Origin: Halorubrum salinum
Lineage (GTDB): Archaea > Halobacteriota > Halobacteria > Halobacteriales > Haloferacaceae
Assembly: GCF_024494575.1 (NCBI RefSeq)
Contig: NZ_JANHDO010000003.1
Location: forward strand, 248,001 to 312,000
Reading direction: 5' to 3'
DNA: 64,000 nt
The position numbers and the translations under genes are program-made. The notes under the pieces are model-generated. The model saw only the letters and a list, made by a program, of their open reading frames with translations. It made no database searches and was not told the DNA's origin. Below are positions 48,867-53,807 of the stretch, piece by piece; the stretch's first letter is position 1, and each line of letters opens with the position of its first letter.

Positions 48867-49829
48867 CTACCGGCCGGTGCGACCTCGGTCGCTCGCCGCG
48901 ATCCGATCGCGTATCGCCCCGGTCGCCGCGGCCGCGTGGCGCGCCTCCCGGTGGCGCTCGTCGAACGCGACGCGGGCGCTCGACGCGGCCTCGGAGTCGA
49001 CGGAGAAGGTCAGGTCTTCGTACGAGACGTCCCAGAGGACGAGCGGCTCGGGCGGTGCCGGTCCCACGCCGAGTTCCCCGGGAACGGGCTCTGCGGCGAG
49101 CAGCCGGTCGGCGTAGGCGAGGTCCGCGGTGCCCCGACCGATCGCTTCGACCGCTGCGACGAGCCGCCGAACGAGCGCGCGGGGGAACCCGCCGGCAGAC
49201 ACCTCGACGACGAGCGCGTCGCCGTCTCGCGTCGCGGTCGCGTCGAGGTCGCGGACGGTCCCCGTCTCGTCGCTCGTCAGGTTGTGGTAGTCGTGTTCGC
49301 CGGAGAACCGGGCGAGCGCGTCCGCGACGCGCTCGTCGTCGATGGAGTCGCGGGCTGCGTCGTCGTGTCCGGTACCCGCGCTCGCTTCCGCACCGCCTTC
49401 TCCACCGCCGGGTGCGTAGAGGTGGTACCGATACGTCCGGCGGAGCGCGTGGTGTGTCGCGTGGAACGCGTCGTGCGCGTCCGCGGCGGCCCATACCCGA
49501 ACGGATCCGGGGAGGTGGCCGTTGAACGCCCGGGGAGTGAGCCAGTCGGGGGCCGCGAACGCGACCGTCTGACCCACCGCGGAGACGCCCGCGTCGGTAC
49601 GTCCCGCGGCGGCGTACCCCGGTGGCGTCGCGTGTGTCGGCCCGTCGCCGCGGTCGAGGACCCCGTGTTTCGCGAGCGCCCGCAACAGCGTCCCCTCGAC
49701 CGTCGTCGCGTGAGGCTGGCGCTGAAACCCCGCGTATTCGCGGCCGTCGTACGCGACCCGAAACGCGCGTAGCCGTCCCGCGTCCTCCGTCGATGCGGTC
49801 TCGCCCTCGGCCGCCGGCGCGTCCGTCAC
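48867..49829 (-). CDS. truA: tRNA pseudouridine synthase A
   Basis: 320-residue enzyme that makes pseudouridine at positions 38-40 of the tRNA anticodon stem. Catalytic Asp79 is in AAGRTDAGVSA; VAYDGREYAGFQRQP and FSGEHDYHNLTS are further family motifs, and the RNA-binding Arg/Phe region is SAGGFPRALVRRLV. A low-complexity acidic/Gly insert (about 145-160) is haloarchaeal. It overlaps the upstream Usp gene by 4 bp, indicating coupling. Confidence 0.94.
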   Translation of the reverse strand: MTDAPAAEGETASTEDAGRLRAFRVAYDGREYAGFQRQPHATTVEGTLLRALAKHGVLDRGDGPTHATPPGYAAAGRTDAGVSAVGQTVAFAAPDWLTPRAFNGHLPGSVRVWAAADAHDAFHATHHALRRTYRYHLYAPGGGEGGAEASAGTGHDDAARDSIDDERVADALARFSGEHDYHNLTSDETGTVRDLDATATRDGDALVVEVSAGGFPRALVRRLVAAVEAIGRGTADLAYADRLLAAEPVPGELGVGPAPPEPLVLWDVSYEDLTFSVDSEAASSARVAFDERHREARHAAAATGAIRDRIAASDRGRTGR

Positions 49830-50308
49830 GCCGCGTCGTTCCGACCGACATCGGACTCGTCCGGCTCATCCGACTCGTCCGACTCGCGGATCGGCACCGT
49901 GACCACCGGGACCGGTGAGACCCGAACCACCTTTTCGGTGACGCTTCCCAAGAGCACGCGTTCGATCCCCGTCCGAGCGTGGCTCGGCATCACGACGAGG
50001 TCGGCACCGCTGTCGCCGATGGCGTTCTCGATCACGTCGAGCGGCTCGCCGCGAACGACGTTCCCGACGACGTCGACGCCCGCCGCCTCCAGTTCGGCCG
50101 TGACCTCCTCGACGCGCGCCTCCGCCGCGGTCTCGACGCGCTCGGCGAACGCGCCGGCCTGCGGCCCGCGCAGCGTCTGTGCCACGGTGTCGATGGCGCT
50201 AACGACGTGGACGGTCGCGTCGTAGCGGTCGGCGAGGCTCGCAACGTGGGGCACCGCGTCGTTCGCCTCTCCGCCCGGCGCGACGGGAAGCAGGATCGTG
50301 TCGTACAT
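49826..50308 (-). CDS. Universal stress protein (UspA family) with acidic tail
   Basis: 160-residue protein. Usp domain to about residue 140 (ILLPVAPGGEANDAVPHVASLADR; PSHARTGIERVLLGSVTEKVV). The first glycine of the ATP motif is replaced, so nucleotide binding may be altered. The tail contains short repeats (ESDESDEPDESD) encoded by degenerate GACTCGTCCG units. Its stop codon overlaps the truA start, so the two are cotranscribed. Confidence 0.9.
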   Translation of the reverse strand: MYDTILLPVAPGGEANDAVPHVASLADRYDATVHVVSAIDTVAQTLRGPQAGAFAERVETAAEARVEEVTAELEAAGVDVVGNVVRGEPLDVIENAIGDSGADLVVMPSHARTGIERVLLGSVTEKVVRVSPVPVVTVPIRESDESDEPDESDVGRNDAA

Positions 50309-51176
50309 GTATCAGGGTCGTCCGGCCGGATGCAAAACGGTACCGGCCGCCTCATCGAGGTGAAGGCACACTCCCCCCGACCAGTACGCGAGGCCGCTTC
50401 CCATTGCCAGACCCGTTGCGAATATACATATGTTATCTTGTAACTTAGCAGAATAGTAGTATTCCATATATTTTGTCACACATCGAGAAACGAAGCGGGC
50501 GAGCCGGTCCGAGACAGACGGCGGTCGTGCGTGACGCGTCGCTGCGCCGCGACCGCCGCGACCGGAGGACGTTTCACCGAATCGTGAGAGACCGCAGATT
50601 CGTACGATTGAGCGAGTGATTCGACACGTGTAGCCGGTGAGACCACCGATAGTCGAATGCGAACCCGACGCCGACCGGGACGAATCGGGGCGGACAACAC
50701 GACCGACGATCGGTCAACGTGCTTTTCGCGATCACGTCGGACGTTCCCGTCTACGTCTCGGATCGCCTCTCGACGCGTTTCGCACCGCGGAGAGACCGGT
50801 GGCCGGCCGATCGGTCGTGACGGGCGGAAGTCGCGCCGTCTGCCGTGGCAGCCGTCCTTTTTATCAAATTTATAGCTATTATATATTTCTGTTCTTTCGT
50901 TCCGAATGTGTGGTACCCAATCGTGGGATCCACCGGTCTGCACGCTCTGCCGAACACGGACGGAGCGCGGTGCGAGGACGTTCCTGACGACGCGGAGTCG
51001 CGAGCGCCGACGGTAGGAGAAAGACGGCGATTCGGGAGCGACGACGAGAACGATCGAGTCAGCGCGTCTGAATCGGGTGTTTCGACGCTGAACGCGGTTC
51101 GGACCGCCGTGAGGGTGCCGGTCCGACCCGTATGTTACACCGCTATTTTTGTAAAGGCTGAGCGCGAAGGTGAGCC
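50309..51176. other. 868-bp intergenic region without supported gene
   Basis: Two AT-rich islands (50417-50476 and 50864-50902) are separated by 380 bp of GC-rich sequence. All frames there translate into arginine-rich, low-acidity products unlike local proteins. A plus frame at 50845-51180 starts in the second island with a hydrophobic stretch, but it ends across the rdfA start and is most likely chance. A TATA-like CTATTTTTG about 25 nt before the rdfA ATG is credible. Islands could house promoters of an unrecognised RNA. Confidence 0.6.
51145..51153 (+). promoter_or_regulatory. Probable TATA element of rdfA
   Basis: TATTTTTGT lies about 28 nt before ATG 51177, in agreement with a leaderless transcript. 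Confidence 0.5.
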
Positions 51177-51788
51177 ATGACCGATACGTCGTCGCGGCCG
51201 AACAGCAAAGTCGCGCGGGTGATCGACGCGTACGAGTTGGACGGATTGGGTGCGGAGTTGGAACGTCGGTGGACCGGCGAGGACGGCGACCGAACGAGCC
51301 TCCGGGACCTCGCGACACTGTTCAACCGTCGCGTCCTGGCGGCGGCGATGCGCGAGGCGGGCCACTCTGCGGTGGAGAGCGACGTCGAGAGCGCGTACGC
51401 GTCCTTGACGGACGAGGAGGCGGGTAGCGCAGACCGAATGCGAAAGCGGCGCGACCTCGAACAGGCCGGTGTCGACGTCGACGTCGTGCTCGGTGATTTC
51501 GTCACTCATCAAGCCGTCCACACGTACCTCACGAGCTACCGCGATGCGGAACTCCCCGACCGATCCGACGAGCGCATCGACCGGAAAATAGAGACGCTCG
51601 AACGCCTGCAGGGACGAACTGCCGCCGTCACTGAGTCCACCGTGGAATCGCTCGTCGACGCCGGCGAGTTGACCGATCACGACTACGAGCTACTGGTCGA
51701 CGTGCGCGCGATCTGTCCCGACTGTGGCTCCGACTACCCCGTGGGCGACCTGCTCCGGTCGGGCGGCTGTGACTGCGACGACTCGTAG
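51177..51788 (+). CDS. rdfA: Rod-determining factor RdfA-like protein
   Basis: 203-residue protein that resembles RdfA (HVO_2174), a factor needed for rod shape in Haloferax volcanii. It opens SKVARVIDAYELDGLGAELERRW and RTSLRDLATLFNRRVLAAAMR, suggestive of an HTH-like N-terminal region; the middle is helical, and residues 180-200 form a zinc-ribbon-like end CPDCGSDYPVGDLLRSGGCDCD. It is followed by the SMC-related gene after 66 nt with its own promoter. The identification is from memory of family appearance. Confidence 0.85.
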   Translation: MTDTSSRPNSKVARVIDAYELDGLGAELERRWTGEDGDRTSLRDLATLFNRRVLAAAMREAGHSAVESDVESAYASLTDEEAGSADRMRKRRDLEQAGVDVDVVLGDFVTHQAVHTYLTSYRDAELPDRSDERIDRKIETLERLQGRTAAVTESTVESLVDAGELTDHDYELLVDVRAICPDCGSDYPVGDLLRSGGCDCDDS

Positions 51789-51823
51789 GGCGGCGCGTTC
51801 GTGATTTTGCAGTTACATAACAA

Positions 51824-51831
51824 TTATATTA
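51824..51831 (+). promoter_or_regulatory. TATA element of the SMC-related gene
   Basis: TTATATTA is centred 27 nt before ATG 51855, which supports that start over an upstream ATG. Confidence 0.6.
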
Positions 51832-51854
51832 ATCGCACCGGTAGAACTCGCGTA

Positions 51855-53807
51855 ATGGAGCCGAAGATGCTTTCGGAGTCGCCCGTCCGCGTTCACGCGA
51901 GCAACGTGGGGGGAATAGACGAGACAGAAGTCCAGATTCAACCCGGTGTGACGGTTCTTAGCGGCCGTAACGCGACCAACCGAACCTCGTTCCTGCAGGC
52001 GCTCATGGCCGGGCTCGGCAGCACCCGTCCGTCGCTGAAGGGCGACGCGGCAGAGGGACGCGTCGAACTCACGGTCGGTGACGAGACGTACACGCGGACG
52101 CTCACTCGCCGCGGCGACACGATCGCGTTCGGCGGCGACCCGTACCTCGACGATCCGGAACTCGCCGACCTCTTCGCGTTCCTCCTCGAAAACAACGAGT
52201 CACGGCGCGCCGTCGCCCGCGGAGACGACCTCCGCGAGATAATCATGCGGCCGGTCGACACGGACCAGATCGAAGCGGAGATCCGGGAACTCGAGAGCGA
52301 GAAAGACGACCTCGACGACCGAATTTCGGGACTGGATCAGCTCGAATCGACGCTGCCGGACTTAGAGGCGAGGCGGGACGAGATCGCCGCCGAACTGGAG
52401 GAGGCCCGCGCGGACCTCGCGGACGCACAGGAAGCGATAGACGAACTCGACGCGGACCTCGAAGAGAGTCGCTCTCGGAAGGAAGAGCTCGAAGCGGCGT
52501 TCCAACGCGTCCGCGAGGCCCGGTCGGAGGTCGAAGATCTCACCTTCGAGATCGAAACCGAGGAGTCGACGCTCTCGGAGCTTCGCTCGGAGCGTACCGA
52601 CCTCGAAGCGACGCTCGAAGAGTCGGAGCCGCCAGACGAGGACCCGGAGCGGATCGACGGTCGGCTCACGGAACTCCGCGAGCGCAAGCGCGCTCTCGAC
52701 GAGACGCTGAACGAACTCGGGAGCGTGATCAGCTTCAACGAGGAGATGCTGGAGGGCGACGGGCTCGACGTCGCGTTCGGACAGCGCTCGAACGGCGACG
52801 ACGCGGAGTCGAACTCCGTCACGGACGAACTCCTCGGCACCGACGAGGTCGTGTGTTGGACCTGCGGCTCCGAGGTCGAGCGGGGCCGGATCGACGACAC
52901 GGTGGACGCGCTCCGGGATCTCAGAGGCGAGCGGCTGGAGGAGCGAAACGAGGTTCGAGACCGCATCTCGGAGCTCACGTCGAAGCGGTCGTCCATCGAA
53001 ACGCAGCGGGCCGAGAGGCAGCGGGCCGAAGAGCGCCTCGAAGCGGTCGAAGCGGAGATCGAGGAGGTGAAAGACCGGATCGAGGCGCTCGAAGCCGAGC
53101 GCGAGGCCGCCGAGACGCGCGTCCGGGAGCGCGAGGCCGAGACGGAGGACGTCGGAGCCGGCGAGTACGACGAAGTGATAGAGCGTCACCGCGAGGCCAA
53201 CGAGCTGGAACTGCGCGTCGACCGGTTGGAGTCGGACTTGACGGAGGTGGAAGCGGAGATCGACGAGACCGAAACGAAGATAGACGAGCGCGAGACGCTC
53301 CGCGAGCGGCGCGAGGCGGTGGCCGACGAGCTGACCGATCTCCGCACGCGCGTGGATCGGATCGAAGCGGACGCCGTCGACGCGTTCAACGAGCACATGG
53401 CCGCGGTGTTGGACGTGCTTGGATACGACAACATCGACCGAATCTGGATCGAGCGCCGGGAGTCGGAAGTCCGAGAGGGTCGCCGCAAGGTCTCACGCGC
53501 CCGGTTCGACCTCCACGTCGTTCGTTCGACGGACGACGGGAGCGCCTACCGCGACACCGTCGACCACCTCTCAGAGAGCGAGCGCGAGGTGACGGGACTC
53601 GTCTTCGCCTTGGCCGGGTACCTCGTCCACGACGTGTACGAGACGCTTCCGTTCATGGTGTTGGACTCGCTTGAGGCGATCGACTCGGACCGGATCGCGG
53701 CGATGGTCGAGTACCTCCGCGAGTACGCCGGCTACCTCGTCGTCGCCCTGCTGCCCGAAGACGCGGCGGCCATCGACGGCGACCACCACACGGTCGAGTC
53801 GATCTGA
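51855..53807 (+). CDS. Archaea-specific SMC-related protein (ASRP/Sph-like) with zinc hook
   Basis: 650-residue SMC/Rad50-like coiled-coil protein. An N-terminal head (about 1-115) is followed by a coiled-coil arm, a CWTC zinc hook at residues 334-337 exactly at the middle, a second arm and a C-terminal head with LSESEREVTGLVFALAGY and FMVLDSLEAID. The P-loop reads GRNATNRTS, so the usual GK is NR; the Walker B acid pair DE is DS. It fits archaea-specific SMC-related proteins found beside rdfA in Haloferax (Sph3 by memory). A role in cell shape or chromosome organisation is inferred. Confidence 0.88.
   Translation: MEPKMLSESPVRVHASNVGGIDETEVQIQPGVTVLSGRNATNRTSFLQALMAGLGSTRPSLKGDAAEGRVELTVGDETYTRTLTRRGDTIAFGGDPYLDDPELADLFAFLLENNESRRAVARGDDLREIIMRPVDTDQIEAEIRELESEKDDLDDRISGLDQLESTLPDLEARRDEIAAELEEARADLADAQEAIDELDADLEESRSRKEELEAAFQRVREARSEVEDLTFEIETEESTLSELRSERTDLEATLEESEPPDEDPERIDGRLTELRERKRALDETLNELGSVISFNEEMLEGDGLDVAFGQRSNGDDAESNSVTDELLGTDEVVCWTCGSEVERGRIDDTVDALRDLRGERLEERNEVRDRISELTSKRSSIETQRAERQRAEERLEAVEAEIEEVKDRIEALEAEREAAETRVREREAETEDVGAGEYDEVIERHREANELELRVDRLESDLTEVEAEIDETETKIDERETLRERREAVADELTDLRTRVDRIEADAVDAFNEHMAAVLDVLGYDNIDRIWIERRESEVREGRRKVSRARFDLHVVRSTDDGSAYRDTVDHLSESEREVTGLVFALAGYLVHDVYETLPFMVLDSLEAIDSDRIAAMVEYLREYAGYLVVALLPEDAAAIDGDHHTVESI

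Follow-up and report, generated by a model that had tools for sequence, protein, structure and literature searches.

The archaea-specific SMC-related proteins (ASRPs) of haloarchaea carry altered ATPase motifs that are a fixed trait of their branch and not damage, which suggests that this branch may function without hydrolyzing ATP in the normal way. SMC proteins are viewed as chromosome machines driven by ATP, and if the whole branch, with its dedicated partner and cell-shape phenotype, proves to be hydrolysis-free it would be a clear case of an SMC fold put to structural or sensing use; a motif trait conserved across a family is of greater interest than a single odd gene, with the mechanism behind it still one that we infer. 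The member considered here lies in a window of 64,000 nucleotides (the whole stretch of DNA that was analyzed), in which two intact genes, rdfA and then the ASRP gene, occupy positions 51177 to 53807 of the plus strand. This pair is an ordinary copy of the known haloarchaeal RdfA-Sph pair. The initial annotation proposed a joint module; the pairing is not new, as its synteny and mutant phenotypes are already published, and what is new here is the motif survey over ASRPs; we found no statement on replaced ATPase residues in the available excerpts of PMC10869688, PMC9389158, and PMC11276520. The features of the pair are as follows.

51141 to 51154, plus strand: TATA-like element of rdfA, sequence CTATTTTTGTAA, about 23 to 33 nt upstream of ATG 51177
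51177 to 51788, plus strand: rdfA, rod-determining factor A, from ATG 51177 to the stop at 51788 (203 aa; PF21811)
51714 to 51776, plus strand: zinc-ribbon-like end of RdfA (Cys180, Cys183, Cys198, and Cys200)
51824 to 51833, plus strand: TATA-like element (TTATAT) of the ASRP gene, at about -28 from ATG 51855
51855 to 53807, plus strand: ASRP/Sph gene (NF045487, 690 bits; SMC/Rad50 head fold match, Z 20.5)
51963 to 51989, plus strand: altered Walker A, GRNATNRTS (residues 37 to 45; GK replaced by NR)
52854 to 52868, plus strand: zinc hook, CWTCG (residues 334 to 338)
53565 to 53600, plus strand: altered ABC signature, HLSESEREVTGL (residues 571 to 582), the most conserved head segment of its length
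53658 to 53684, plus strand: altered Walker B/D-loop, VLDSLEAID (residues 602 to 610; Ser605 replaces the catalytic Glu)

RdfA matches PF21811 over nearly its full length in a profile search (248.5 bits against a cut-off of 27; E = 5.9e-74), and the ASRP exceeds the NF045487 cut-off of 300 bits with E = 2.4e-207. Each profile finds a single above-cut-off gene in the genome of the window, which also carries SMC/Rad50-like genes that stay below the cut-off of the ASRP profile. The ASRP further has the layout of its family, with a mid-chain CxxC, an N-terminal Walker A, and a C-terminal Walker B. It differs from Rad50 and canonical SMC proteins in its length of 650 aa, in lacking canonical Walker A and B motifs (NR, LSES, and DS stand in place of GK[ST], LSGG, and DE), and in scoring far below the profile cut-offs for Rad50 (66.9 versus 700 bits) and SMC (46 versus 567 bits); its match to arcadin-4 (NF053563; 26.4 versus 860 bits) involves the coiled coil only. 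The reading frame is open from GTG 51801 to 53807. Because the TATA-like element sits about 28 nt upstream of ATG 51855 and many relatives, among them L077, L106, L113, L133, and L139, have it at this distance too, translation most likely starts at ATG 51855 rather than at GTG 51801, and the transcript is likely leaderless, as predicted from the sequence. We note that an in-frame TAG separates the reading frames of rdfA and the ASRP gene.

The AlphaFold2 model of the ASRP (87 sequences, pLDDT 87) has one head built from both chain ends, an antiparallel coiled coil, and the hook. The predicted head is of the SMC/Rad50 kind (Z of about 20), a fold common to Rad50 and canonical SMC proteins, with matches to SMC and Rad50 heads ranging from Z 20.5 to about 18 over 250 to 370 residues; a search of solved structures with the sequence gave one marginal match (E = 0.0064), the head chain of a cohesin SMC. 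Two heads had been described initially, and both chain ends do contribute, but the N- and C-terminal halves form a single ABC head. The mid-chain zinc hook noted at the same time stands, and all of 87 ASRPs have its Cys334 and Cys337. The RdfA model (103 sequences, pLDDT 92.5) combines a helical domain with a helix of 29 residues and a small end carrying four Cys, each of which is conserved in 101 of 103 homologues; the zinc-ribbon-like character that had been claimed for this end is thereby supported, and zinc binding is predicted. PDB relatives were sought with the RdfA model, for which Foldseek returned no match at E ≤ 0.001 and VIA-align a best Z of 4.3, so that no structural relative can be named.

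The Walker A (GK to NR) and Walker B (DE to DS, in the context FMVLDSLEAID) changes read as the initial annotation gave them, and GRNATNRTS and VLDS align with the Walker A and B positions of members that have GK and DE. A third alteration had been missed, the ABC signature, the core of which is LSESE versus LSGGE. Our headline motif counts come from 41 haloarchaeal ASRPs recovered, flanks included, by a motif-blind profile search that covered a phylum-wide sample of genomes; a second set of 80 loci was picked by motif patterns and is left out of these counts. The Walker B Glu is present in 0 of the 41, and the Walker A GK is retained in 7 (GK/DG in 4 and GK/DR in 3), with the others being NR/DS (GxNATNRTS; 29), HR/DS (3), and NK/DA (2). 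Canonical GK and DE are thus not what most orthologues have, and the comparison does not refute, and as far as sequence can indicate bears out, the earlier view that these changes speak against a normal ATP cycle. GxNATNRTS together with LDS recurs over nearly the whole haloarchaeal class, so the motifs of the window are not a matter of chance. Both ASRPs with an NK Walker A (L195 and L180) have Ala in Walker B, and NR is accompanied by Ser, so changes at the two sites may be coupled.

In an alignment of 87 ASRPs thinned at 80% identity, position 605 is Ser in 77, Gly in 4, Ala in 2, Arg in 2, and Glu in 2, both of the last being Methanosarcinaceae proteins with GKTS; ASRPs of this family keep GK and DE, unlike that of the window. 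Other archaeal ASRPs keep GK and in most cases an acidic residue at the Glu position, with a Walker B of DE in L172, L175, and L176, DD in L171, and DN in L173 and L174. Haloarchaea are thus not alone in having lost the Glu, but among them the loss is complete in our sample. H. salinarum Sph1, the founding family member, belongs to class 2, with SNFQGKSS as Walker A and LLDG as Walker B, from which the Glu is absent. It keeps GKSS and an LSEGE signature, whereas the window ASRP is of the NR/DS type and is closest to H. salinarum Sph2 (GRNATGRTS/LDS). Both H. salinarum proteins (hp71; Ruepp 1998, cited in the available text of PMC11276520) resemble the window ASRP in having a CxxC zinc hook, no Walker B Glu, and rdfA directly upstream of the gene. 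With the motif columns masked, a tree built from the heads alone places haloarchaeal ASRPs in one clade (98/93) within which the GK-type class 2 is itself one clade (100/100), and Methanosarcinaceae ASRPs are sister to the haloarchaeal clade, with outgroup branches that are long and flagged. The simplest reading is that the Glu would have been lost no later than the origin of the haloarchaeal clade, followed by the change from GK to NR in class 1.

The altered motifs were initially called degenerate, a misleading term, as they belong to the best-conserved stretches of the head and therefore do not reflect decay. Within 79 class 1 rows the P-loop, signature, and Walker B are 97%, 98%, and 96% identical, versus 75% for equally long segments of the head, and rank 5, 1, and 12 among about 265 such segments; motif patterns had served to fetch part of these rows, which inflates conservation somewhat, and the 41 unbiased loci agree. 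Strict conservation suggests that the site still does something, and we lean toward a reading in which RdfA would be the dedicated partner of a hydrolysis-deficient, zinc-hook ASRP, the two together promoting rods as a structural element or a switch. The ASRP is a short Rad50-like member of the SMC superfamily, as sequence and model show, and its zinc hook should dimerize it. Because its head lacks the Walker B Glu, to which this sub-branch adds the loss of the Walker A Lys, it most likely does not hydrolyze ATP in the manner of SMC and Rad50 proteins; the altered site may instead bind nucleotide without turnover, or hold two heads or a partner.

In ABC ATPases, hydrolysis is blocked when the Walker B Glu is changed, and heads that have engaged tend to stay trapped; a Walker A change from K to R usually weakens binding. 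These effects make a locked or nucleotide-free scaffold the leading reading. An Arg in the P-loop could be compatible with nucleotide binding, and the role of base could fall to another residue. The ASRP may still be an active ATPase, re-wired with Arg43 in place of Lys and with another acidic residue, such as Glu607 or Glu576, activating water, and this would fit a site that is conserved like a working active site, retains Ser/Thr44, Ser45, the Walker B Asp604, and the signature Ser573, and has Glu607 near-invariant in class 1. However, Glu607 sits in the D-loop and not at the catalytic position, and class 2 has Gly at the 607 position and Arg or Gly at the catalytic one, so there is no common substitute there across RdfA-partnered ASRPs, and we consider continued hydrolysis unlikely. 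Extended to all RdfA-partnered haloarchaeal ASRPs, the non-hydrolyzing reading would make them one SMC branch in which hydrolysis was lost when or before RdfA joined and most members then acquired NR, acting as nucleotide-locked or nucleotide-free scaffolds and not as motors; on this broader proposal we are evenly divided.

Among 391 haloarchaeal genomes, ASRP is found in 342 (E ≤ 1e-60) and RdfA in 347 (E ≤ 1e-8); comparing the lists by eye, both are present in 342, with RdfA only in 5 (G072, G111, G165, G285, and G340), ASRP only in 0, and neither in 44. The pair is thus missing from about 12% of the sampled genomes, and in the genus of the window the two genes are mostly lost together. RdfA lies within about 2 kb of ASRP in 38 of the 41 unbiased loci, upstream or downstream and in either orientation, so the pair is kept together without a fixed operon layout; in the motif-picked set the two are within 400 bases in 61 of 81. 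The window, in which RdfA adjoins the SMC-like gene, agrees with the available text of PMC10869688, where an RdfA gene adjoins 42 of the 50 SMC-like genes from 24 genomes and adjacency is put at 78 to 84%. Distance matrices of ASRP and RdfA correlate at r = 0.94 in a mirror-tree comparison (0.91 for class 1 alone), and none of about 3000 swaps of RdfA among same-genome paralogues, which keep the species tree, reaches the observed r, so each ASRP keeps its own matched RdfA. RdfA would thus be a dedicated, co-inherited partner that probably binds ASRP directly, although co-inheritance can reflect function without binding.

Archaellins show no positive association with ASRP, being present in 260 of the 342 genomes that have it and in 41 of the 49 that lack it (Fisher p = 0.28), and their presence in those 41 ASRP-lacking genomes indicates that motile haloarchaea do not generally need the pair. 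The genes next to the window pair code for a universal stress protein and a heavy-metal P-type ATPase; ddfA, which neighbors the H. volcanii pair, is absent there, and no Mre11 gene is among the adjacent genes scanned. The universal stress protein gene (49826 to 50308) is near rdfA, as in Haloferax mediterranei and at H. salinarum sph2 (L226; L228). A conserved third gene of this kind was considered and rejected, since it is near the pair in only 5 of 80 other loci.

The H. volcanii genes rdfA (HVO_2174) and sph3 (HVO_2175) are, like those of the window, adjacent members of the RdfA and SMC-like families. Each is needed for rods and motility, and strains deleted for either form disks only and are non-motile with no growth defect, according to the excerpts of PMC10869688, so that the joint role in cell shape proposed initially is shown genetically in that species; the disk-only phenotype of the sph3 deletion is confirmed in those of PMC11276520. 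A 2026 paper has Sph3 promoting the plate form (PMC13286277), opposite to both sets of deletion data. We propose that RdfA and ASRP would together be a structural or switch element favoring rods, for which the genetics come from H. volcanii and the physical mechanism is one that we infer.

A different possibility is that the pair acts on the chromosome, through DNA bridging, recombination, or gene conversion, with the shape phenotype secondary. The SMC/Rad50 head fold and zinc hook are in keeping with this, as is the relative ClsN (coalescin), which organizes Sulfolobus chromosomes and belongs to the previously described ASRP family with Walker motifs, head, coiled coil, and zinc hook (NF045487; PMC9389158, in part). 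Moreover, all four sph deletions lower survival in a gene-conversion assay in H. volcanii (to about 20% for sph3), as given in the available text of PMC11276520, so the role may exceed shape. However, the rdfA and sph3 deletions are disk-only without a growth defect, Sph overproduction yields rods (cited in the excerpts of PMC10869688 and PMC11276520), and the window genome keeps SMC- and Rad50-like genes of its own. We therefore think a primarily chromosomal role quite unlikely. The chromosome-membrane link suggested initially is unsupported, and the explanation can do without it. Random decay or sequencing error in a dying SMC gene, to which the departure from textbook SMC motifs might point, has a negligible chance and is rejected, given the same conserved alterations in >130 distinct ASRPs, the missing Glu in 41 of 41 unbiased loci, the intact reading frame, and the conserved promoter element.

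ASRP was not found in the phages searched. ASRP-like matches are present on 136 plasmid records, mostly large haloarchaeal plasmids; 71 of these matches cover at least 80% of the query, and some species have several per genome.
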